The position numbers were made by a program, and so were the translations under genes. Source: Oscillospiraceae bacterium (GTDB lineage: Bacteria; Bacillota; Clostridia; Oscillospirales; Ruminococcaceae). Taken from it: DNA of 64,000 nt. Numbering within the stretch: position 1 is the first letter of the stretch; each line of letters opens with the position of its first letter. The notes under the pieces are model-generated. The model was given only the letters and a program-made list of their open reading frames with translations. It had not been told where the DNA came from and ran no database searches. Location: the NCBI GenBank assembly GCA_021200775.1, contig JAJQGB010000016.1:117684-181683 (forward strand). The letters are read 5' to 3'. Shown piece by piece: positions 20,600-33,465 of the stretch.

Positions 20600-21844
20600 T
20601 TATTCTATCGAAAGATATTCTTCCGGAATGTAGCTGAGTACCTTATTTATCGTGTCCTGAGTGAACCCCGAGCACCCGTGCGCCGACAAAAGGTCGTCCG
20701 TGTACGAAGCATACGTCTCAATGTGGATGTTCGAGTAGTTGTAGCCGTACTGTGTGATAATCGGAATCGCCCTGACATTCTCAATGGTGATTTCTCCGGT
20801 GTCCATGTTCTTTGTGATTTCAAGTTTCCCGAGTATTCCGACCATCGCCAGCGGGTCCGCCATCGCAGAAACAAGGTTTCCGAGTCCGTAGAAGACAAAT
20901 GCCTGTCCGCCGTCCGGCTTGTCTATGTACTCCATCGTCTCGACCGTGTGCGCCTGAGTCCCGATGATGAGGTCTGCACCCCATTCAACAAGCTTCGGGG
21001 TAAAAGTCTTTTGCAATGTAGACAGCTCGTTCGAGACCTCCGTCCCGTAGTGAACAGACACAACGACCACATCCGCAATGCTGTCGGCATACCGCACCTG
21101 CTCTTCAATCAAATCCATATTCGCATCGGTGATTCTTATAATCCAGCACTCGGTGTTTGACGGGAGATAGAGTCCGTTAGTGTGCTCGGTGTAACCTAAG
21201 AACGCAAAAGTAATCCCGTTAATTTCGGTGGTGCGGATGTTGTTCATATCATCTTCGCTCTCATAAGCACCGTAGCAGATGACGTCCTCCTGCTCTTTCC
21301 AGTAGTTAAGAGTGGAGATAAGCCCGGTTTCTCCTCTGTCAAGGACATGATTATTGCAAATCGAAATGACATTGAACCCGAGGTCTACCATCTTCCGACC
21401 CAAATCTCCGGGCGAGCAGAAATTGGGATAATCACTCGGTTCGAGCTCGTCGGTGACGATGGTTTCCTGGTTTAAAATCGCAATATCGACGTCTTCAAAA
21501 TATCCTTCGATGCTCTCGTAGACATAATCGAAGTCATATCCATCCTCATCGCCGTTAGCCTTTGCTCTTCTGTGAGCCTGATTGTAGATAGATGAGTGAA
21601 TGAGGTTGTCCCCGGCGCAAAGAAGCGTCACAGTTCTTATGTCCGGTTCCGGCTCAGCAGTAGTGACGGTTGTAGCCTCGGTCGTGACAGTAGTAGGCAC
21701 AGTCGTCGCCTCGGTGGCGGCTGTGGTAGCCTCGGTGACCTCAGCAGTGGTTTCCGACGGGTTGTCCTCAACCAATTTTGTACATGCAACAGTAGTCATC
21801 AGGCAAGCCGCCGCAACTATTGTCGCGAAAATTCTTTTAAGCAT
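20600..21844 (-). CDS. CapA-family lipoprotein (poly-gamma-glutamate synthesis-like phosphoesterase fold)
   Basis: A 414-residue protein with a lipoprotein signal (MTTVAC lipobox, Cys about residue 20), a Thr/Glu-rich linker of about 45 residues, and a CapA/PGA_cap domain. Metallophosphoesterase-like motifs: LLCAGDNLIHS, ILNQETIVT, CNNHVLDRG, SVHYGTE, IGTQAHTVE and FYGLGNLVS. CapA domains occur in poly-gamma-glutamate production but are often of unknown function; no capB/capC is nearby. The start is ATG 21844 behind GGAGAC; the longer frame upstream covers the promoter. It leads the alpha-xylosidase on the same strand. Confidence 0.85.
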   Translation of the reverse strand: MLKRIFATIVAAACLMTTVACTKLVEDNPSETTAEVTEATTAATEATTVPTTVTTEATTVTTAEPEPDIRTVTLLCAGDNLIHSSIYNQAHRRAKANGDEDGYDFDYVYESIEGYFEDVDIAILNQETIVTDELEPSDYPNFCSPGDLGRKMVDLGFNVISICNNHVLDRGETGLISTLNYWKEQEDVICYGAYESEDDMNNIRTTEINGITFAFLGYTEHTNGLYLPSNTECWIIRITDANMDLIEEQVRYADSIADVVVVSVHYGTEVSNELSTLQKTFTPKLVEWGADLIIGTQAHTVETMEYIDKPDGGQAFVFYGLGNLVSAMADPLAMVGILGKLEITKNMDTGEITIENVRAIPIITQYGYNYSNIHIETYASYTDDLLSAHGCSGFTQDTINKVLSYIPEEYLSIE

Positions 21845-21881
21845 AGCTGTGTCTCCATATTTCTTTTCATTTTCAGAAAGT

Positions 21882-21910
21882 ATTATAGCAAAAATCGCTG
21901 CGAAAAACAA
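21882..21910 (-). promoter_or_regulatory. Promoter of the capA-like gene
   Basis: Minus strand TTGTTT (21910-21905), 17-base spacer, TATAAT (21887-21882), 38 bp before the start codon. Confidence 0.6.
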
Positions 21911-21958
21911 TACCGAAGTCACGTTTTACCGCAACTTTTCACAGAAAAAATAAAACAA

Positions 21959-23598: not shown

Positions 23599-24678
23599 TT
23601 ACTTGCACTCCTTTTTTGACTTGTCAATGGCTTCCCAGAGACCGTTAAGGTAGCAAACGCCCAGCGCTCTGTCGTAAAGACCATAGCCCGGTCTGCCGGT
23701 TTCTCCCCAGATCATTCTTCCGTGGTCGGGACGGATGTAGGTGTCGGGGCAGACTTCGTAAATAGCCTTCATAATCTCGTACATGTCGAGCTCGCCGTCT
23801 GATGAAAGGTGGCTTGTCTCACAGAATCTGCGATCTGACCCTAGGTGCTTGATGTTTCTTACATGCATACAGCCGATTTTTCCCATTTCGCCGAAGTGAC
23901 GGATGATGGAGACGACGTCGTTCTGGGTATTGGAACCTAACGAACCTGTGCAGAGGCAAAGGGTGTTGCAGGGGCTGTCAACAAGACCGACAATCTTGTC
24001 GTAGCCTTCCTGAGAATGAGCAAGTCTCGGAAGACCAAAAATCTTCCATCCCGGGTCGTCCGGGTGGCAAGCCATAACGACTCCGCACTCTTCACATGTC
24101 GGGATAATTCCTTCGAGGAAATACTTGTAGTTAGCAAGTAACTTTTCTTCGTCTACATCCTCATAGAGCTTTAAAACTCGCTCCAAATCGGCAAGTCTTT
24201 CCGGTTCCCAGCCGGGGAGGGTGAAGCCGTTTGAATCCTCAGCGGTTTTCTGTACGATTTCAAGAGGAGTCATGTTTCCGAGCTCTTCTTCGTCATAGTA
24301 CATGCTGGTCGAGCCATCGGGATTAGGCTTCGCAAGGTCGGTTCTCAGCCAGTCCAGAACCGGCATGAAGTTATAAACGATGCACTTGACACCGTATTTT
24401 GCAAGGTTGCGAATTGTAATGCAGTAATTTTCGATGTATTTGTCCCTTGTGGGAAGCCCGAGCTTGATGTCCTCATGGACATTTACACTTTCGATAACTT
24501 CGCACTCAAGTCCTGCGGCATGAACCTCGTCCATATAAGTCTTGATTTCCTCTTCGGTCCAGACTTCACCAGCCGCCTTGTAGTCGATTACTCCCATAAG
24601 TCCGCTTACGTTCGGAATCTGGCGAATCTGCGAAAGAGTAACGCTGTCGCTGTCTTTGCCGAACCATCTGAATGTCAT
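23599..24678 (-). CDS. uxuA: Mannonate dehydratase
   Basis: A 359-residue TIM-barrel enzyme converting D-mannonate to 2-keto-3-deoxygluconate. The family N-terminus [21 protein letters not shown] (metal-site His/Asp), HVRNIKHLG and [11 protein letters not shown] near the end are all present, covering the Fe/Mn ligands. The start is ATG 24678; a TTG two codons earlier with GTGAG close upstream is nearly as good and would give the MKMTFRWFG start common in relatives. It forms an operon with uxuB and is divergent from kdgA-kdgK. Confidence 0.94.
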
Positions 24679-24763
24679 TTTCAATTTACTCACAGCCTTT
24701 CGGTATTTTATTAAGCTTTCTGCCCGGAATCCGGGATTCAAGCAATTTTAACTGTTTCATAAG

Positions 24764-24769
24764 ATTATA
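24764..24769 (-). promoter_or_regulatory. -10 element of the uxuAB promoter
   Basis: TATAAT on the minus strand (24769-24764). A TTGAAA lies upstream with a 20-base spacer, longer than ideal, so the -35 is unsure and an activator may be needed. Confidence 0.4.
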
Positions 24770-24846
24770 ATAGCATTTTGCACGACTATTTTCAAGACCT
24801 TTCTGTATTTTTTATGGTCTATTTTGTAATTTTGAAAGAAGTATTA

Positions 24847-24875
24847 TTGACAATTCCCTCGCTAGCATTTATAAT
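24847..24875 (+). promoter_or_regulatory. Sigma-A promoter of kdgA-kdgK
   Basis: Consensus TTGACA (24847-24852), 17-base spacer, TATAAT (24870-24875), 37 bp before the start codon. Confidence 0.85.
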
Positions 24876-24912
24876 TAAGATGTAATAAAATTTCAAAGGA
24901 GCGGATAAAGCG

Positions 24913-25872
24913 ATGTCTTATCAAGCTATTGCAGATAAAATTTATAATCTCGGAATCCTCCCCGTAATCGCCATCGAGGATGCCGACAAGGCTGTTCCTC
25001 TGGCAAAGGCTCTTTGCGACGGTGGTCTTCCTGCGGCTGAAATCACTTTCAGAACAGCATGTGCCAAGGAAGCCATCATGAGAATAAGAAAAGAATTGCC
25101 TGAAATGCTCGTAGGAGCGGGAACAGTTCTTACCAAAGAGCAGGTTGACGACGCTCTCGAAGCAGGAGTCGAGTTCATCGTAACTCCCGGCTTCAACCCG
25201 GAAATCGTCAAGTATGCACTTTCAAAGGGCGCAGTGATTATGCCTGGAACCGCAACTCCCGGCGAAATGGAGCAGGCTATGAGCATGGGTCTCGATATCG
25301 TCAAGTTCTTCCCGGCTGAGCAGAACGGCGGTGTCGCCAAATTAAAGGCTGTAGCGGCACCCTATCAGAAATTAAGATTTATCCCCACCGGCGGAGTAAA
25401 TGCCACAAACCTTGTCGACTATATCAAGTTCAACAAGATAATCGCCTGCGGCGGCACATGGATGGTGAAGAAGGACTTAATCGACGCCGGAAACTGGGCT
25501 GAAATCACTCGCCTTACAAAAGAAGCCGTCCACGCAATGCTCGGTCTCGAATTTGCCCACATGGGAATCAACTGCGACGCTCCCGAGGAAGCACTAAAGG
25601 CGGCAAAGCTTCTTGAAACGATGTTCGGCTTTGGCTATAACGATGGCAATTCTTCCGTCTTCACAGCAGACAAGAAGATTGAAATCTGCAAGACCCCGAA
25701 GCCCGGCAAGTATGGTCACATCGCAATCGCAACCAACTCGACTGCCCGTGCCGTTGCCTACTTCAAGTCACAGGGCTATGAGTTCGCAGACGAGTCCACA
25801 ATCCCGACTGGTGCCGTCTACTTCAAGGACGAATTCATGGGCTTTGCAATTCATCTCGTACAGAAAAAGTAA
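24913..25872 (+). CDS. kdgA: KDPG/KHG aldolase fused to a VOC-type domain
   Basis: A 319-residue protein, about 100 residues longer than the usual aldolase. Residues 1-210 are the class I aldolase: LPVIAIEDAD, AAEITFRT (with the catalytic Glu), VGAGTVLT, FIVTPGFNPE, and DIVKFFPAE, whose Lys is the Schiff-base residue. Residues about 213-319 (HMGINCDAPEEALKAAKLLE..., later GHIAIATNS and GFAIHLVQ) look like a glyoxalase/VOC fold unit of unknown role. It cleaves KDPG to pyruvate and glyceraldehyde 3-phosphate. It is co-transcribed with kdgK 17 bp downstream. Confidence 0.92.
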   Translation: MSYQAIADKIYNLGILPVIAIEDADKAVPLAKALCDGGLPAAEITFRTACAKEAIMRIRKELPEMLVGAGTVLTKEQVDDALEAGVEFIVTPGFNPEIVKYALSKGAVIMPGTATPGEMEQAMSMGLDIVKFFPAEQNGGVAKLKAVAAPYQKLRFIPTGGVNATNLVDYIKFNKIIACGGTWMVKKDLIDAGNWAEITRLTKEAVHAMLGLEFAHMGINCDAPEEALKAAKLLETMFGFGYNDGNSSVFTADKKIEICKTPKPGKYGHIAIATNSTARAVAYFKSQGYEFADESTIPTGAVYFKDEFMGFAIHLVQKK

Positions 25873-25889
25873 TATAGGAGGACACAGTA

Positions 25890-26915
25890 ATGGGAAATAA
25901 AGCGGTAACCTTCGGCGAAATAATGCTAAGACTCAACCCGGAGGGATATTTAAGATTTTTGCAGGCTAACACTTACGAAGCAACCTTCGGCGGCGGAGAA
26001 GCAAACGTAGCGGTATCTCTTGCCAACTACGGAGTTGACGCTTCGTTCGTAACCAAGCTCCCGAAGCATGAAATAGGTCAGGCGGCAGTCAACGAACTTC
26101 GTCGTTATGGCGTCGATACAAGCGACATCATCAGAGGCGGCGACAGAGTCGGAATCTACTTTGCCGAGAAAGGCGCTTCTCAGAGACCTTCAAAGGTAAT
26201 CTATGACAGAGCCTACAGTGCGATTTCTCTTGCAAAGAGGGAAGAGTTCGACTGGGACAAGATTTTTGACGGCGCCAAGTGGTTCCACTTCACCGGCATC
26301 ACTCCGGCTCTCGGCGGCGAGCTCCCGGAAATCTGTTTAGACGCTGTCAAGGCGGCTCACGCTAAGGGTGTAACGGTAAGCTGTGACCTGAACTACAGAA
26401 AGAAGCTCTGGACAAGAGACGAGGCACGTGAGTGCATGTCAAAGATTGTTCCTTACGTCGACGTCTGCATCTCTAACGAGGAGGACGCAAAGGACGTCTT
26501 CGGAATCGAAGCCGAGAACACCGACATCGACTCCGGCAAGCTCAATCACGAGGGCTACATCAGCGTAGCTCGTCAGCTCCACGAAAGATTCGGTTGCAGT
26601 CATGTTGCAATCACTCTTCGCTCCTCAATCTCCGCTAACGACAACGACTGGGCAGGTATGCTCTACACAGGCGACAACGCCTACTTCTCTAAGCAGTACC
26701 ACATGCACATCGTCGACCGTGTCGGCGGTGGCGACAGCTTCGGTGGCGGACTCATCTATTCACTCATGAATGATTACGAGCCCCAGAAGGCAATCGACTT
26801 CGCAGTCGCGGCTTCCTGCCTGAAGCACTCCATCGAGCACGACTTCAACCTCTGCTCAGTTGCAGAAGTAGAGTCGCTCGCCGGCGGCAACGCATCAGGA
26901 AGAGTTCAGAGATAA
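25890..26915 (+). CDS. kdgK: 2-keto-3-deoxygluconate kinase (PfkB family)
   Basis: A 341-residue ribokinase-family enzyme phosphorylating KDG to KDPG with ATP. It starts AVTFGEIMLRLNP, has the FGGGEANVAVSLA sugar-binding motif, and ends with VDRVGGGDSFGGG, where GGGD takes the place of the family's GAGD and carries the catalytic Asp. AGGAGG lies ahead of the ATG. With uxuB, uxuA and kdgA it completes fructuronate to pyruvate plus triose phosphate. An intrinsic terminator follows. Confidence 0.93.
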   Translation: MGNKAVTFGEIMLRLNPEGYLRFLQANTYEATFGGGEANVAVSLANYGVDASFVTKLPKHEIGQAAVNELRRYGVDTSDIIRGGDRVGIYFAEKGASQRPSKVIYDRAYSAISLAKREEFDWDKIFDGAKWFHFTGITPALGGELPEICLDAVKAAHAKGVTVSCDLNYRKKLWTRDEARECMSKIVPYVDVCISNEEDAKDVFGIEAENTDIDSGKLNHEGYISVARQLHERFGCSHVAITLRSSISANDNDWAGMLYTGDNAYFSKQYHMHIVDRVGGGDSFGGGLIYSLMNDYEPQKAIDFAVAASCLKHSIEHDFNLCSVAEVESLAGGNASGRVQR

Positions 26916-26932
26916 TTATTTCTGCTTTAACG

Positions 26933-26973
26933 AAAAGCTCGGACAAGGTTACTCGCCTTGCCCGGGCTTTTTT
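26933..26973 (+). terminator. Terminator of kdgA-kdgK
   Basis: AAGCTCGG-a-CAAGG and CCTTG-c-CCGGGCTT pair around a 6-base loop and run into TTTTTT. Confidence 0.88.
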
Positions 26974-27011
26974 GGATTTACTATGGAGGATGATTGACTT
27001 TTTATATGGCA

Positions 27012-27093
27012 AAACCCGCCGGATGAACACAAAACAGGAAGTGAGGGTGAAACGCTTAGTGGAGAATGTGAGGAATGTCCATCCGGACGGGTT
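27012..27093 (-). terminator. Long-loop hairpin after the Cthe_2159-type gene
   Basis: AACCCG-CCGGATG near 27013-27025 pairs with CATCCGG-a-CGGGTT (27080-27093), a 13-bp stem with one bulge and a loop of about 54 bases. On the minus strand the last arm ends GGGTTTT. It may be the terminator of the operon to its right, or a small structured RNA. Confidence 0.45.
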
Positions 27094-27143
27094 ATACCCG
27101 AAATTAAGTTGTTGCGCTGTTGCGCATTGTATGGAGCGTGGCG

Positions 27144-29408
27144 TCAGCGTGAACCGCCTCGTCCGCCGCCTCCCATGTCGCCGCCTTGATTGCCACCCAT
27201 GTCGCCAATACCCATGTCTCCGCCCATATCGCCGGAGCCGTCAGGTGCTGTCATGCCGCCTGAGTTGTCATCAAAGCCGCCCATGTCCATTTTTCCGCCG
27301 CTTATGTTGCCTCCGCCAATTCCACCCATACCGGTGGTTTCGCTGTAGATAAGGCTGGAAAGGGTAACTGATGTGCTGTTGCTGCCGTAGGTGACAGTAT
27401 ATGTCGAGCCGGTAGTGAGGGAAGGACAGCTGATTAAGATACATGAGTAAGAAGAACTGCATGTGTATGAAACAAGCACGTTACCGCTTGAATCTTTAAG
27501 AGTAATTGTGTCGCCGGAAGAACCGCTTGCCGAGAGAAGCATTGCTCCCTGAGTCGAGCTGTTGGAGAAGTTCTCCTGCATTCCGGAAGCGCCGACTGCA
27601 ATGAGTGTTCCACCGGTGATAGTGCCCGAAGCCTCCCAGTCGACCGGAGCGTCAGCAGAGGTTGTAGGACCTGAGACATATAGCTCGCCGCCGGACATTG
27701 TGAACGTACCGTTCGAGTCGATTCCGTCGCCGCTTGCCTTGACATAGGTGACTCCGCCGGAAATCGTAATGCTTGAAGACGAACTGCCCGATGAGAAGGA
27801 GTCTCCGCCGAAGCCTCCAAAGCCTCCGAAGCCGCTTGAATCTCCGCCGCCAGCGGCATTGATGCCGTCGTCGCTGGCAACCAAATCTATATTGCCGCCC
27901 GAGATAACGACTGTCTCACCCTCCAAGCCTTCATAGCTCTGGGTGATGGTGATGGTTCCGCCGGTAATTTCGAGTGCTTCGTCAGCGTGCATACCGTCGT
28001 CACCGGTTGCGATGTTGAATGTGCCGCCCGAGACTGTGACGTCGCCGTTCGAGTGAACTCCGTCGTCCTCAGAATCTATGGTGAAGCTACCTCCGGAGAT
28101 GGCGACACTGGTTCCGCCCTTCAAGCCCTTGGTGCTTGTGGAATCGTCAGAAGTTGACGAACCGCCCCAATTATCCCAGCTGAAGGCTCCGCCGGAGGTG
28201 TAGGAAGTCGAAACTTCTCCTGCACCGTCAGCAGTGGTGATGTCAAAATCTCCGTCCTCAATCTGCAAGTAAGTTGCCGCACTGATTCCGTCGCCGTCGG
28301 CGGTGATGTTGAACGTGCCGCCCGAAATATAGACGAATCCGATTGAAGTGTCGGTGGAATCCTCAGCGTGAATACCATCCTGAGTGGATGAAACAGTGAA
28401 ACTGCCGTCTGCGATTCTTACGCTCTCGCCGGATGAAATTCCGTGTCCACCGGCTGTTATCTCAATTGTCGCATCCATGACAATCGTCCGGACATCCGCC
28501 CTGATTCCATCATCGACAGAAACAATTGTGAAGTCTCCGCTGTTTATGGTGACGTTGCTCGAAGCACTTATTCCGTCGTCACCGGAGTCGATATCATAGG
28601 TTCCGCCAGCAATGTAGGTATATCCTAAAGACGTGTCGTCCGTATTTTCCGAGTGGATTCCGTCTTTGCCGGCTGATATTGTGAAGGTGCCGCCTGCAAT
28701 TTTGACGCAATCCTTGCCGCTCAGACCGTGGCTTGCCGCATTGATGACGTAGGTTCCGCTTGTGATTACCAAATCATCCTTCGAGACGATTCCGTGCCCG
28801 GCATTAGCATTTATCGTTAGGGTTCCGGCACCGTTGAGGGTTATGTCATCCTTTGAGTAGATAACCGCATCGATATTGTTATCATCAATCGCAACATAGC
28901 TTCCGCCGTTTGTAAGGGTGTTTGAAGTCCCTGAAGCGGTCGTAATGAACACTTTGTCGGCGTTAAGGACGTACAGCGCCGCCGAGGTTTCGCTTGTAAC
29001 CGAAGCGCCGTCAAGGACAATCTGAATCTTGTCCGAGCTGTCTGCGTCGACGATAATCATACCGTCCGAGAGAGTTCCCGAAATTATATAGGTTCCTTCG
29101 TCGGTGATGGTAACCGTGCTTCCGTCAATCGTGACAGAGGACGAAGAACATTCTGCTGAGGTTCCGGTTAAGGTTATAGCGACGCTCGAATCCTCATCGT
29201 AGCCGATTTCATAGTCCCTGTCGGTGAACATTTCGTCGGTGTCGGTACCGGTCGAATCTGCTCCATCAAACATCTCATCCGGGTCGACCTCAACAACAAT
29301 TGCGTCGGCTTCGGCTTCACTTTCAGGAAGCGAACACCCTGTAAAGCATGTAATGAACAGAGCCGCCGACATGATAAGCGACAAAATTCTTTTTGTACTG
29401 TGATTCAT
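27144..29408 (-). CDS. Cthe_2159-type carbohydrate-binding lipoprotein
   Basis: A 754-residue exported lipoprotein (lipobox FTGC, Cys25). From about residue 75 to 600 it is built of repeated parallel beta-helix turns such as SGGTFNIT-ADGDGISA, AGGTYDID-SGDDGISA and SGGSFTID-SEDDGVHS. The DGI(H/S)-type Asp-Gly corners recur about every 20-25 residues. This is the PF14262 (DUF4353) pattern. The founding protein from Clostridium thermocellum binds polygalacturonate and calcium; that is family knowledge. The last 80 residues are Met/Gly/Asp-rich low complexity. It is the last gene of an operon with DUF4956 and VTC proteins. GGAG is 10 bases before the ATG. Confidence 0.85.
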   Translation of the reverse strand: MNHSTKRILSLIMSAALFITCFTGCSLPESEAEADAIVVEVDPDEMFDGADSTGTDTDEMFTDRDYEIGYDEDSSVAITLTGTSAECSSSSVTIDGSTVTITDEGTYIISGTLSDGMIIVDADSSDKIQIVLDGASVTSETSAALYVLNADKVFITTASGTSNTLTNGGSYVAIDDNNIDAVIYSKDDITLNGAGTLTINANAGHGIVSKDDLVITSGTYVINAASHGLSGKDCVKIAGGTFTISAGKDGIHSENTDDTSLGYTYIAGGTYDIDSGDDGISASSNVTINSGDFTIVSVDDGIRADVRTIVMDATIEITAGGHGISSGESVRIADGSFTVSSTQDGIHAEDSTDTSIGFVYISGGTFNITADGDGISAATYLQIEDGDFDITTADGAGEVSTSYTSGGAFSWDNWGGSSTSDDSTSTKGLKGGTSVAISGGSFTIDSEDDGVHSNGDVTVSGGTFNIATGDDGMHADEALEITGGTITITQSYEGLEGETVVISGGNIDLVASDDGINAAGGGDSSGFGGFGGFGGDSFSSGSSSSSITISGGVTYVKASGDGIDSNGTFTMSGGELYVSGPTTSADAPVDWEASGTITGGTLIAVGASGMQENFSNSSTQGAMLLSASGSSGDTITLKDSSGNVLVSYTCSSSYSCILISCPSLTTGSTYTVTYGSNSTSVTLSSLIYSETTGMGGIGGGNISGGKMDMGGFDDNSGGMTAPDGSGDMGGDMGIGDMGGNQGGDMGGGGRGGSR

Positions 29409-29461
29409 ATTTCTTATTCTCCTACAAAGCTCAGCTTAAAAGCTCAGCCTTTATGCTGTAA

Positions 29462-30157
29462 CTATAGCTCCGCAACCTGATTCTCCTGCTTGGATATGGA
29501 GATTTCAAGATTTCCGTTGCGGCAACGAAGCTGGTCGATAAATTCCTTTTCCTTTTCCGGGTCTCTCAAAACAAGGTCGTAAGTAAGACGGTAAAGGCTT
29601 CCCATGTTTGTGGTCTTGACGTGGGTAAGCTCATATTCCGAGGTGTATTCCTTCAGAAGGTCGTCGAACACTCCGGTGTAGTCGAGGTCCTCAGGAATCG
29701 TGATGTGGAGCGTCTTGTATTTCTGTCCTCTTTTTCTGACGCCGAAGTCAAGAGTCGAGTAGAGCATACTGACAGCCCCGAAGATAATCGCACACAGGAA
29801 TCCGAATCCTATGTATCCCATTCCGACGACAAGTCCTGTGCCCATCGCAAGAAAGATAGCGAGTATTTCTTTCGCAGTTCCAGCCGCAGAACGGAATCTT
29901 ACCAAACTGAAAGCTCCCGCAACAGCAACTGCTGTTCCGATATTTCCGTTTACCATCATAATAACAACGCACACAACCGCCGGCAAAAGTGCGATTGTTG
30001 CGACAAAGCTGCGGGAGTATCTGGTCTTGTACATGTAACATAACGCCAGAATCAGTCCTATCACGAGTGCGGACACCACACAGGTTAAAAAGTCGGAAAC
30101 TGTGATTGTTGAAACGGTGTCTGAATCGAAAATACCTTTGAAAAGATTGTTAAGCAT
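29462..30157 (-). CDS. DUF4956 membrane protein
   Basis: A 231-residue protein with about four membrane helices in the first 140 residues (including SALVIGLILALCYMY, FVATIALLPAVVCVVIMM, AIFLAMGTGLVVGMGYIGFGF) and a soluble C-terminal alpha/beta domain resembling an ACT/ferredoxin-like fold (YKTLHITIPEDLDY..., LTYDLVLRD). The SLVRFRSAAGTAKEI loop between helices is the family signature. DUF4956 genes commonly stand beside VTC and CotH genes, but the activity is unknown. The start overlaps the VTC stop by 8 bases, so translation is coupled. GGAGG stands 8 bases upstream. Confidence 0.87.
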   Translation of the reverse strand: MLNNLFKGIFDSDTVSTITVSDFLTCVVSALVIGLILALCYMYKTRYSRSFVATIALLPAVVCVVIMMVNGNIGTAVAVAGAFSLVRFRSAAGTAKEILAIFLAMGTGLVVGMGYIGFGFLCAIIFGAVSMLYSTLDFGVRKRGQKYKTLHITIPEDLDYTGVFDDLLKEYTSEYELTHVKTTNMGSLYRLTYDLVLRDPEKEKEFIDQLRCRNGNLEISISKQENQVAEL

Positions 30158-30902
30158 AAAGACGTCCTCCGGTTGTTACTTGAATTTTAGGTGCGTGATT
30201 GTCGAGCGTGTGCTCCTCAAACATTTTCTGATAGGCTGTGCCGTACTTTGAGAAGGAAGTTTTGAATATTCCGAGCCTGTTGAGCTCGTGACTCATCCAG
30301 AGCGGATATCCTCCCGAGGTTTTGATTTCCATGAGGGTTTTCCCTTCAGGCAGAATCGAAAGCCCATAGGCGTCGCTTCCCAAAGAGAAATCATCCTGCC
30401 GGCAAAGGATATTCTCGTCGAAAGTGACTCTGAAATCGGAGCCGTCGTCCGAATAGAAGGCTTCACGTTCATATGAGATGAACATTGCCGGCTTTAAATT
30501 GCCGTAGTAGTTTCTGAAATATTCAATCTCGTTCGCAATCTGCGAGTGAACGGGAAGGGAAATGCCATGTAGCAGGCAAAGAGTCGCTTCTCCGGCTGGA
30601 AGTTCAAGCCTTCTCTTGTAGACTACCGACTTGTACTTTTTCTTGAGTTCCACAAACGCAGGGTCCTCGGGACCAGCCTTGCGATAGCAACGTAGCCTCA
30701 GCTTCTCTTTGTAGGTCGGGCTTTCGAGCGAGTGCCTTATCAGGCGGTAATTGTCTGTATCAAAATATATATTTCTTATAGTCGTTCTTCCGTACTTGTC
30801 GAGCTCCATGTAGGGTCGCATAGCTTCGAGCATTGCGTATTTCTGGGCACGTGTGAGCATGTACTTGACTTCATATCGTTTGAATGTTGCCTGATAGTCC
30901 AT
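30150..30902 (-). CDS. VTC-domain (polyphosphate polymerase-like) protein
   Basis: A 250-residue VTC domain protein. The tunnel residues known from yeast Vtc4 have counterparts here: R9 and K13 (RYEVKY), R69 and R71 (LRLRCYR), E85 and K87 (VELKKK), R146 (YEREAF), R158 (FRVTFD), E192 and K194 (MEIKTSG). The full basic lining suggests an active phosphotransferase or a polyphosphate-binding protein. There is no membrane span, so the DUF4956 partner may hold it at the membrane. GGAGG is 7 bases before the ATG. It is first in the operon, behind a cluster of response-regulator-like boxes. Confidence 0.87.
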   Translation of the reverse strand: MDYQATFKRYEVKYMLTRAQKYAMLEAMRPYMELDKYGRTTIRNIYFDTDNYRLIRHSLESPTYKEKLRLRCYRKAGPEDPAFVELKKKYKSVVYKRRLELPAGEATLCLLHGISLPVHSQIANEIEYFRNYYGNLKPAMFISYEREAFYSDDGSDFRVTFDENILCRQDDFSLGSDAYGLSILPEGKTLMEIKTSGGYPLWMSHELNRLGIFKTSFSKYGTAYQKMFEEHTLDNHAPKIQVTTGGRLYA

Positions 30903-31049
30903 CAGGTGTCCTCCTTTTTTAAAACTTAAGCTTGGTTTGTGCGATTGCTTCGGCTAAAAGTGGGGGCTCCCCAAGACAAATCCGCCGGTTGGTATTCCGA
31001 AAGGAGTTCAGAAAAAATAACGAACAGGACAGAGATGCCTTGAGGATTG

Positions 31050-31087
31050 CTTAAAGTATACTTTACATTCCTTAAATCTACCTTAAA
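31050..31087 (-). promoter_or_regulatory. Four-part response-regulator box upstream of the VTC operon
   Basis: On the plus strand CTTAAA-like half sites start at 31050, 31061 (CTTTAC), 31071 and 31082, spaced 11, 10 and 11 bases, that is one helical turn each. Read on the minus strand the right pair is TTTAAGGTAGATTTAAGG. The same 18-base pair with one change lies upstream of the response regulator gene. No certain -10 was fixed. The rest of the 30903-31113 gap shows nothing recognisable. Confidence 0.65.
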
Positions 31088-31113
31088 GTGTATGTGAAAA
31101 TAATGTTAAAGTT

Positions 31114-32400
31114 TCATGAAGGAAAAGTGATAGTGATTAAAAGCGATTTCTCGTCAGATGTCGCCGCCGAGATTTTGCCCTTGTGGGCGGTGACGATAGC
31201 CGCGGCAATCGAAAGCCCCAAGCCGTAACCGCCGGTCTGGGAGTTTCTGCTCTCATCCGTCCGGTAGAACCTGTCAAACAGGTGCGGCAGGCTGTCCTTC
31301 GACATATAAGGGCAGGTGTTGAACACCATAAGCCTTATAGTTCCTCTTTGCTGTTCAAGAGTGAGATTGATGGTTCCGTGCTCGTCCGAATACTTCATAG
31401 CATTGTCGAGAAGTACCCCGAGAAGCCTTCTGATTGACTTTTCGTCACCATGTAAGCTTATCATCGGCTGAATTGAGCCGGAAAGATTCTTTTCGTGAGT
31501 CTTTGCAAGCGAACGATACTCTTCGAGAACCTCCTCAACGACATCCGAAAGAGGGAAGTCGATCATCTGATACTGAGGCTCCGGCTCCTCCATCCTTGAA
31601 AGCATTATAAGGCTGTTCGTCATGTCTGTAAGCCTTGTTACCTGATTGCGGATGTCGGTTATCCATTCATTTTCGCCAATATCCATTTCAAGCACTTCAG
31701 CGTCCGCACCGATAACCGTCAGAGGAGTTTTCAAATCGTGCCCTGCGTCGGTGATGAATCTGCGCTGTTTCTCATAGTTTTCCCAGAACGGCTTGACAAT
31801 TCTTCCCGACAGGAAGATCAGAAGCACCAAAACCATCACAAGTCCGACTGCCGAAATGCCCAGACTAGCCGTTATAACAGTTCTGAATGTCGAGAGATTT
31901 CTCGCACAATCCAAAAATACAATCGTGGTTTCAATTTCGCCTTCGTAAACAAGATATCTGTAATCGTCGATAAAGCCTTTTGTCTTGTCTTTTGCAAGAA
32001 CCTTCTCGGCGTATTCGACGGCGGATGAGCTGTCAACAGCGGCAATCTTTCCCGTGTTCACAGAAACGAGATTTCCCGAGCGGATGTTGAAGGTGACGGT
32101 AAAGTATCTTGTTTCATATTCAAGCTCGGGCGATTCGAGAATGTCATTTTGGTGCCTTGAAGCACTGTTACCAGGAGCACCGATATTGTCGTCCCCGGGT
32201 ACTACGGAATCCGAAGGGAACTCGTCAATCTTTTCGGGGAAGCTTCCGCCGTTGTCCGCCAGGAGCGAAAGAACGGCATCTGCATCGTCTATGATTCCCT
32301 GATAGGTGGAAAAAGCGATAACTCCGACGACAACCGAAAGAACTATCAGAAGAGAAAGCATTGTCGCACCGATGAGCTTCAGCCTGAGATTGTTAATCAT
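31114..32400 (-). CDS. Sensor histidine kinase
   Basis: A 428-residue membrane kinase. TM1 lies at about residues 8-30 and TM2 at about 160-185, with an extracytoplasmic sensor of about 130 residues between them. Then comes the DHp helix FITDAGHDLKTPLTVIGAD with the phospho-accepting His, and the ATPase domain with LLDNAMKYSD (N box) and GGYGLGLSIAAAIV (G boxes). A HAMP domain is not obvious. Start ATG 32400 behind GGAGGAG; it overlaps the response regulator stop by 8 bases. It should phosphorylate the regulator next to it. The signal is unknown. Confidence 0.9.
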   Translation of the reverse strand: MINNLRLKLIGATMLSLLIVLSVVVGVIAFSTYQGIIDDADAVLSLLADNGGSFPEKIDEFPSDSVVPGDDNIGAPGNSASRHQNDILESPELEYETRYFTVTFNIRSGNLVSVNTGKIAAVDSSSAVEYAEKVLAKDKTKGFIDDYRYLVYEGEIETTIVFLDCARNLSTFRTVITASLGISAVGLVMVLVLLIFLSGRIVKPFWENYEKQRRFITDAGHDLKTPLTVIGADAEVLEMDIGENEWITDIRNQVTRLTDMTNSLIMLSRMEEPEPQYQMIDFPLSDVVEEVLEEYRSLAKTHEKNLSGSIQPMISLHGDEKSIRRLLGVLLDNAMKYSDEHGTINLTLEQQRGTIRLMVFNTCPYMSKDSLPHLFDRFYRTDESRNSQTGGYGLGLSIAAAIVTAHKGKISAATSDEKSLLITITFPS

Positions 32401-33073
32401 CCGGAATCTCCTCCAGTGCATAGCCGGCATTTCTGACAGCCTTAATCTGGATATTCGCCTTCAGGGCGTCGAGCTTTTTTCTGAGGTAGGAGATGTAAAC
32501 CCAGACGACATTAATCTCCGATTCGCTGTCATAGCCCCAGATTTTCTCCAAGAACCTTTCCGACGGAATGATGGTGCGTGGATTGCTCATAAGAAATTCG
32601 AGCATCTGAAACTCTTTGTTCGCAAGCCTTAGACTTCCCGAAGGAGTCGAAAGCTCGAAAGTCGCCCTGTCCAGAGTGACGTTTCCGAATTTAATCTGCG
32701 AACTCTGGTGCTGGGTAGAAGTCCTCGTCATCGCCCTGATTCTTGCAAGAAGCTCCTGCGAGTTAAAAGGCTTCGTCAGATAGTCATTAGCGCCAGAATC
32801 GAGCCCTGCAACCTTGTCGCTGACCTCCGAGCGGGCTGTCAGCATGAGAACGGGAACGGTGTTGCCCTTTTTCCTGATTTCTTTGAGAACGGTGAATCCG
32901 TCAACCTTCGGCATCATTATGTCGAGTATGACCCCGTCATAGTTGTCCGCTTCGAGATATGAAAGAGCTTCCTGCCCGTCATAGACGGCATCAACCGAGT
33001 AGTTGTTTCGTTCAAGTATTGCAACAAGCGCCTTCGACAGGGCTTTTTCATCCTCAGCCAGAAGAAGTCTCAT
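32393..33073 (-). CDS. OmpR/PhoB-family response regulator
   Basis: A 226-residue regulator. Receiver domain: LLLAEDEKAL (acidic pocket), GVILDIMMPKVDG (phospho-acceptor Asp about residue 51), LTARSE (Thr), TKPF (Lys). C-terminal winged helix: LANKEFQMLEFLMSNP and VWVYISYLRKKLDA. Start ATG 33073 behind GGGAGG; the open frame upstream covers the promoter. OmpR-type regulators bind tandem direct repeats about 11 bp apart, which is what is seen at 33122-33139 and 31050-31087. Confidence 0.92.
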   Translation of the reverse strand: MRLLLAEDEKALSKALVAILERNNYSVDAVYDGQEALSYLEADNYDGVILDIMMPKVDGFTVLKEIRKKGNTVPVLMLTARSEVSDKVAGLDSGANDYLTKPFNSQELLARIRAMTRTSTQHQSSQIKFGNVTLDRATFELSTPSGSLRLANKEFQMLEFLMSNPRTIIPSERFLEKIWGYDSESEINVVWVYISYLRKKLDALKANIQIKAVRNAGYALEEIPDD

Positions 33074-33103
33074 GCCTGGTCCTCCCTTTATGTTCGTATT
33101 TCT

Positions 33104-33139
33104 ATTATAATACAATTCCAACCTAAAATCTACCTTAAA
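33104..33139 (-). promoter_or_regulatory. Autoregulated-looking promoter of the two-component system
   Basis: TATAAT on the minus strand (33109-33104) is preceded by TTTAAGGTAGATTTTAGG (33139-33122), which covers the place of the -35. A regulator bound there would replace a poor -35. Seventeen of 18 bases match the box at 31070-31087. Confidence 0.65.
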
Positions 33140-33177
33140 TTTTGGTGAATGTTTAAAAAAACAGAGGAAAATTTAAA

Positions 33178-33204
33178 GACCGAAGCGGTTTTAGTGCTTC
33201 GGTC
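33178..33204 (-). terminator. Terminator after rqcP
   Basis: GACCGAAGC (33178-33186) and GCTTCGGTC (33196-33204) form a 9-bp stem; on the minus strand TTTAAATTTTCC follows. Confidence 0.8.
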
Positions 33205-33222
33205 CTTTGGTGTAAGGCTTTA

Positions 33223-33465
33223 TCAGGAAATAATCTCGTACTGTCCGGCGGCGGTTTCCTTCGTCGCATACTCCGAAACGGAAAGTACTCTTACCTTCAG
33301 AGGATTCTTCCCAAGATTAATCTCAATGATGTCGCCGACCTTCACTTCATAGGAAGCTCTTGCGGGCTTGCCGTTTGCCGAGATTCTTCCAGCATCGCAG
33401 GCTTCGTTCGCAACGGTTCTCCGCTTTATAAGTCGGCTGACTTTCAGGTATTTGTCTAGTCTCAT
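33223..33465 (-). CDS. rqcP: S4-domain RNA-binding protein RqcP (YabO)
   Basis: An 80-residue S4-fold protein starting MRLDKYLKVSRLIKRRTVA, with GRISANGKPARASYEVKVGD, nearly the same as B. subtilis YabO/RqcP. RqcP binds stalled 50S subunits and helps RqcH add alanine tails during ribosome quality control. GGGAGAG precedes the ATG. The order spoVB - hup - rqcP seen here matches that around yabM-yabO in Bacillus relatives, supporting orthology. Confidence 0.9.
   Translation of the reverse strand: MRLDKYLKVSRLIKRRTVANEACDAGRISANGKPARASYEVKVGDIIEINLGKNPLKVRVLSVSEYATKETAAGQYEIIS

Follow-up and report, generated by a model that had tools for sequence, protein, structure and literature searches.

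A 64,000-nt stretch of DNA from an Oscillospiraceae bacterium (contig JAJQGB010000016.1; called the window here, with all positions numbered along it) carries a five-gene system at 27144-33121, entirely on the minus strand, in which a two-component pair and the operon beside it are very probably both under CiaR-type control. The pair consists of an OmpR-family response regulator and a membrane histidine kinase; the operon encodes a VTC-domain polyphosphate-polymerase-like protein, a DUF4956 membrane protein and a Cthe_2159 beta-helix surface lipoprotein (Table 1). A preliminary description of this DNA had proposed all five genes, which Pfam domain matches bear out, and had suggested that the two-component pair controls the operon through a shared box, a proposal that gains support from the excess of the predicted promoter over controls in related genomes.

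Promoters of the regulator-kinase pair and the VTC operon

Both transcription units are preceded by a predicted promoter of the CiaR layout TTTAAG-N5-TTTAAG-N10-TATAAT. For streptococci, an extract of PMC3091779 gives the CiaR site as TTTAAG-N5-TTTAAG, with a TATAAT ten bases away, and an extract of PMC8317062 gives the same direct repeat. The 18-bp box noted earlier is indeed common to the two sites, with 17 of 18 positions identical, but it is not the whole element: it forms the upstream half of a promoter whose -10 hexamer has its first base 27 nt from that of the box in both cases (TATACT and TATTAT). Neither promoter has a sigma-70 -35 match, and ordinary sigma-70 promoters were rejected because a sigma-70 scan of 26900-33300 lists neither site.

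With up to two mismatches allowed, the box TTTAAGGTAGATTTWAGG is found at just two places in the whole 2.06-Mb sequence of this genome, and allowing three adds one more site. Strong sites for the promoter (at most 1/18 mismatches) in this genome are those of the VTC operon and the regulator, and nothing else. Within the window, two matches to the box pattern were observed at up to three mismatches where 0.05 were expected, and none of 100 shuffles contained two. A chance origin was ruled out by this rarity in the genome, by the window shuffles and by the excess upstream of VTC in relatives described below.

The recognition helix of the window regulator, VVWVYISYLRKKL, is identical at 9 of 13 positions to the streptococcal CiaR helix VVEVYVSKVRKKL (extract of PMC3091779), which is near-invariant in streptococci; no entry named CiaR is among the 28 PDB matches listed. 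As in the CiaRH system of streptococci, the repeat and a -10 hexamer ten bases on are present at both window promoters, one of which precedes the genes of the regulator-kinase pair itself, and in relatives, not in this genome, one htrA-like gene and several small-RNA candidates are found among the sites. The system differs from CiaRH in its hosts, here Oscillospiraceae and Lachnospiraceae, and in its main target, the VTC-DUF4956-Cthe_2159 operon, which is unmentioned for CiaR targets in the extracts of PMC3091779 and PMC8317062. The likeness is one of site and helix rather than of a whole-protein comparison.

Conservation was assessed in two sets of loci. The first comprises 134 VTC loci from 148 genomes of the family, with neighbours labelled by purpose-built profiles; for the second, a collection of named genomes yielded at least 566 relatives, of which the best 80 were taken. 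These 80 were picked for likeness to the window VTC and thus belong to its lineage by choice, and at least three of them (L316, L323 and L382) apparently repeat contigs of the first set, so that the sets are not fully independent. In the first set, the promoter was found at up to 4/18 mismatches upstream of VTC in 27/55 loci with a Cthe_2159 neighbour, 8/23 with no partner and 6/52 with CotH, compared with 4/351 control upstream regions; at up to 3/18 mismatches, the counts were 18/55, 7/23, 4/52 and 0/351. The second set gave 43/78 against 4/272 controls at up to four mismatches and 21/78 against 0/272 at up to three. The preliminary description held that absence of the box upstream of orthologous operons would speak against it; it turned up in front of roughly half of these operons, a much higher share than in controls. 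When the spacing of the half-sites was varied (up to 3/14 mismatches, 55 Cthe_2159 loci), a spacing of 11 gave 24 loci, 10 gave 15, 12 gave 11 and the others 1-5, with 6/351 controls at spacing 11. In two relatives of 90% identity (L306 and L307), the VTC-operon box and -10 hexamer lie in a strongly conserved block, and the regulator promoter is also kept (two and three mismatches).

The two-component genes accompany the operon in many of these loci. Regulator and kinase both lie near VTC in 16/55 Cthe_2159 loci, 3/53 CotH loci and 2/26 loci without a partner; in four of these 26, the contig ends within 1 kb downstream of VTC. Among the 80 loci of the second set, 71 have Cthe_2159, none has CotH and 56 have both regulator and kinase, 52 of these together with DUF4956 and Cthe_2159; VVWVYISYLRKKL is exact in 39 of the 59 regulators near VTC in this set. 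In Lachnoclostridium phytofermentans KNHs2131 (L381), the regulator-kinase pair is divergent from a VTC-DUF4956-Cthe_2159 set, and the boxes are degenerate, at 4 and 5 mismatches.

Proteins of the operon and their partner lineages

The window VTC protein (250 aa) has one Pfam domain over residues 8-228, without SPX or a fused membrane domain. The family profile matches yeast VTC4 structures (E 2.8e-20), and the earlier remark that all tunnel residues are present was upheld, as the VTC4-aligned residues are invariant in 39/39 VTC sequences of both lineages, although the last of them, E192 and K219, depend on a weak second alignment segment. We take the roles of these residues to be those known from yeast VTC4. 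The tunnel domain is thus shared with VTC4, the catalytic subunit of the yeast VTC complex, whereas SPX and fused membrane helices are lacking and the membrane partner is likely to be DUF4956. By homology, the window protein probably makes polyphosphate. No PPK1 and no PPK2 match was found in this genome (estimated 100% complete), so its two VTC proteins are the only recognised polyphosphate-polymerase candidates. The second belongs to a VTC-DUF4956 pair elsewhere (G000:C6:170587-171246; L007, L123), and the genome also has a second Cthe_2159 gene. Across the family, VTC is present in 106/148 genomes.

VTC and DUF4956 adjoin in 127/134 loci, and the two window genes overlap by 8 bp; we are fairly confident that DUF4956 is the membrane partner of VTC. 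A model of the DUF4956 protein (predicted local distance difference test score 83) shows transmembrane helices followed by a C-terminal ferredoxin/ACT-like domain, an MgtC-like layout. The structure search covered essentially the C-terminal part, whose fold is too common to discriminate. At E 0.1 the window protein has no listed match to MgtC (PF02308), which is found in 13/81 alignment members, at best with 5e-5.

The Cthe_2159 protein scores 409 bits against PF14262 (cut-off 25.8), has a lipobox-like FITCFTGC, recognised by eye, and matches a solved relative listed as an uncharacterized protein (4peu/4phb, E 5e-40), which we take to be Cthe_2159 itself. The structure of Cthe_2159 contains calcium sites. 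Compared with Cthe_2159 of Clostridium thermocellum, the window protein has the same beta-helix domain, but is longer, lipoprotein-like and encoded with VTC and DUF4956. Its tail is rich in Gly, Met and Asp (27144-27330); in 52 of 127 Cthe_2159 proteins examined, Gly makes up 25% or more of the final 60 residues. Proteins of this family bind cellulose and polygalacturonic acid (extract of PMC6712302).

The preliminary description regarded Cthe_2159 as standing in for a usual CotH partner, which was not borne out. The two are mutually exclusive partners: of the 134 loci, 55 have Cthe_2159, 53 have CotH, none has both and 26 have neither. On a tree of 132 VTC proteins (two short ones dropped), the partner changes only 3 times, as against a mean of 35.6 and a minimum of 28 after shuffling, and partner swapping was rejected as the cause of the exclusivity because the partner follows the VTC lineage; support for the split node between the partner lineages is low (0.306). 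The second copy in this genome (L123) groups with the CotH lineage, yet no CotH is present in its 14-kb locus. In the CotH/polyphosphate polymerase/DUF4956 genes of pel clusters (extracts of PMC7112168 and PMC12345266), VTC and DUF4956 are likewise adjacent and joined by one exported partner. Here that partner is Cthe_2159, a regulator-kinase pair is attached, and the window VTC lineage is distinct from the CotH loci of the same family; no pelDEADAFG or other pel genes were seen among the flanking genes scanned, and the 14-kb locus around the window operon (L122) has no CotH.

Predicted wider regulon and small-RNA candidates

A scan of the 148 family genomes for strong sites returned 59 in 28 genomes, compared with 12 for a reversed control pattern, and all 59 were inspected. 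Recurrent targets follow 43 of them: 14 sites precede VTC, 10 precede other, separate Cthe_2159 genes and 9 precede operons with a regulator-kinase pair (33 together for these three classes). One of the nine does so through a leading 321-aa gene, which lies between the CiaR-type promoter and the regulator gene (L063, 7568-8533), presumably the position of ciaX in S. mutans. A ciaXRH operon is named in an extract of PMC8317062. An htrA-like protease gene follows one site in a relative, and spoVG follows strong sites in two genomes (L288, 982-1278, by Pfam; L234, about 2400-2700, by sequence only). Dockerins were found in three of the four separately transcribed Cthe_2159 proteins scanned. Two exported-looking proteins of 616 and 789 aa with no Pfam match are also encoded behind strong promoters (L230, 1249-3099; L292, 946-3315).

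Four clear and three looser small-RNA candidates, all in relatives, lie behind strong CiaR-type promoters and are predicted to be cia-dependent small RNA (csRNA)-like. The clear ones (L229, L242, L280 and L283; 70-132 nt, with ends chosen by hand) start with GGATT(A/G)A within a base, contain C-rich unpaired stretches such as CCCCAATTCCCC, finish in a terminal hairpin and T run, and have folding z-scores of -3.6 to -4.3. The looser ones (L237, L232 and L289; z -2.3, -6.6 and -4.3) have only the overall plan in common, and L276 was dropped as a candidate (z -0.9). A strict sequence pattern gave 7 rows in 5/148 genomes, against 3 for its reversed control; the rows in G019, G138 and G117 sit at box sites, while those in G069 and G144 look like chance. 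This genome itself yielded neither the strict pattern nor any candidate. An Rfam search at E 1 gave no match for L229, L232, L237 or L242, and none in six regulon loci. Some candidates occupy gaps between convergent genes, following genes that by eye resemble msmX, prfB or a cellulase gene, and the msmX-adjacent one (L237, 858-1020) carries about 90 nt of additional structure between its C-rich part and the terminator.

Proposed mechanism and alternatives

Taken as a whole, we lean towards an explanation in which a self-regulated CiaRH-type two-component system has a dedicated VTC-DUF4956-Cthe_2159 target operon that serves polyphosphate at the cell surface. An envelope signal would activate the kinase, which likely carries an extracytoplasmic sensor region, and the phosphorylated regulator would occupy the direct repeat, which at both promoters stands where a -35 box would otherwise be, and raise expression of its own pair and of the VTC operon. 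VTC could then build polyphosphate from the phosphate of ATP on the inner side of the membrane, where DUF4956 would anchor it and gate or translocate the chain, with the ACT-like domain as a possible sensor. Outside, the Cthe_2159 lipoprotein might hold a polyanion, either exported polyphosphate or an acidic polysaccharide, probably with calcium. The regulation is well supported by sequence, and homology makes the synthesis of polyphosphate likely. Export and retention at the surface are what we infer, and the idea that polyphosphate gets to the surface, with Cthe_2159 retaining it there, is a tentative and rather doubtful suggestion. The preliminary description had also put forward, as hypotheses, phosphate decoration of a surface polymer or a coupling of polyphosphate to the wall.

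Several observations weigh against this explanation. The promoter is missing at four mismatches in 28/55 Cthe_2159 loci and 35/78 loci of the second set, the spacings N4/N10 and N5/N10 tie in a spacer scan (32 each), and sites in this genome at up to three mismatches are not above the control (4 vs 8). Sixteen of the 59 strong sites fit no recurrent target. One of these precedes a lone kinase gene without an adjacent regulator (L298, in genome G056), in a genome where the three sites equal the three control hits. Two of nine regulators behind strong sites do not have a CiaR-like helix (L271, 3/13; L238, 4/13). That some Cthe_2159 genes of this regulon are transcribed on their own suggests that the protein need not work with VTC, and because PPK1 is present in 106/148 family genomes, many of which also have VTC, VTC is not merely a PPK substitute. 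Deletion of a related VTC gene in S. intermedius is not among the aggregation-altered mutants in an extract of PMC12345266.

Phosphate or ATP homeostasis offers a different account, in which VTC and the MgtC-like DUF4956 form an intracellular polyphosphate/phosphate-balancing pair and Cthe_2159 is a separate envelope target that happens to share the transcript. We consider this possible, if not very likely: the joint inheritance of partner and VTC lineage, with its three changes, would be unexpected under chance sharing of a transcript, and Cthe_2159 and CotH are both exported-looking, yet never occur together near VTC (0/134). VTC, DUF4956 and the exported partner could instead tune the synthesis or attachment of an exopolysaccharide, like the trio adjacent to pel in streptococci. 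Deletion of the S. intermedius genes for DUF4956 (SIR_1592) and CotH (SIR_1594) alters the amount of Pel and, in one medium, lowers aggregation to less than half (extract of PMC12345266), and the affinity of Cthe_2159 proteins for cellulose and polygalacturonic acid would fit such a role. Nevertheless, an exopolymer or aggregation module appears improbable, as no polysaccharide synthase was seen recurring near 107 VTC genes (the neighbour clusters were not annotated singly), clusters other than CotH span at most six loci, and the genes scanned beside the window operon encode uronate catabolism, an S4 protein and a MatE/MurJ-like flippase.

The uronate genes (23599-26915), which the operon abuts, and the dockerins of separately encoded Cthe_2159 proteins would suit an operon that displays a pectin-binding protein for adhesion to plant fibre, with the VTC part secondary. 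This is very improbable, given that the adjoining uronate genes (24913-26915) are convergent with the operon and that, near the 107 VTC genes whose neighbours were clustered, a mannonate-dehydratase gene is seen at only one more locus. The polyphosphate-surface explanation can also be widened, in a version that we think unlikely, to a CiaR-type envelope-stress regulon across gut Clostridia with csRNA-like, C-rich anti-Shine-Dalgarno RNAs. Its chief output would be a PPK-independent VTC-DUF4956 polyphosphate synthase-exporter, with surface polyphosphate held by calcium-binding Cthe_2159; in the sister lineage CotH, an extracellular kinase, would be the partner and may use the same polymer.

The protein families, the CiaR promoter code and the pel-linked relatives are already known. 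Among the open-licence PMC matches listed, no paper was found on CiaR-type control of a VTC-DUF4956-Cthe_2159 operon or on its breadth in Clostridia, nor on partner exclusivity or the small-RNA candidates. An operon that is conserved and whose regulator and promoter are defined offers a means of inducing bacterial VTC and DUF4956 proteins and testing their roles. The CiaR promoter code, and perhaps its small RNAs, would moreover reach past the streptococci into common gut bacteria.

Gene organization and neighbouring genes

The regulator has a longer open reading frame that reaches 33121 from a TTG; the ATG at 33073 is preceded by a GGGAGG stretch.

Table 1. Genes and predicted promoters of the five-gene system (window positions).
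Feature	Position	Strand	Evidence and remarks
OmpR-family response regulator	32393-33073	minus	PF00072 and PF00486
Membrane histidine kinase	31114-32400	minus	ATG (32400) overlaps the regulator stop
VTC-domain polyphosphate-polymerase-like protein	30150-30902	minus	PF09359, E 9e-38; stand-alone catalytic domain
DUF4956 membrane protein	29462-30157	minus	PF16316, E 3e-14; 8-bp overlap with VTC
Cthe_2159 beta-helix surface lipoprotein	27144-29408	minus	PF14262, E 8e-123; start 53 bp past the DUF4956 stop
Predicted VTC-operon promoter, TTTAAG-N5-TTTAAG-N10-TATACT	31055-31087	minus	box 31070-31087; -10 31055-31060
Predicted regulator-kinase promoter, TTTAAG-N5-TTTTAG-N10-TATTAT	33107-33139	minus	box 33122-33139; -10 33107-33112

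Rfam gave no match in the window at gathering scores. The uronate genes comprise a mannonate dehydratase gene on the minus strand and KDPG aldolase and PfkB sugar kinase genes on the plus strand; a linkage between them and the operon was rejected, being confined to the window and just one further locus near the 107 VTC genes. A PGA_cap (CapA-like capsule) gene at 20600-21922 is unconnected with the operon.

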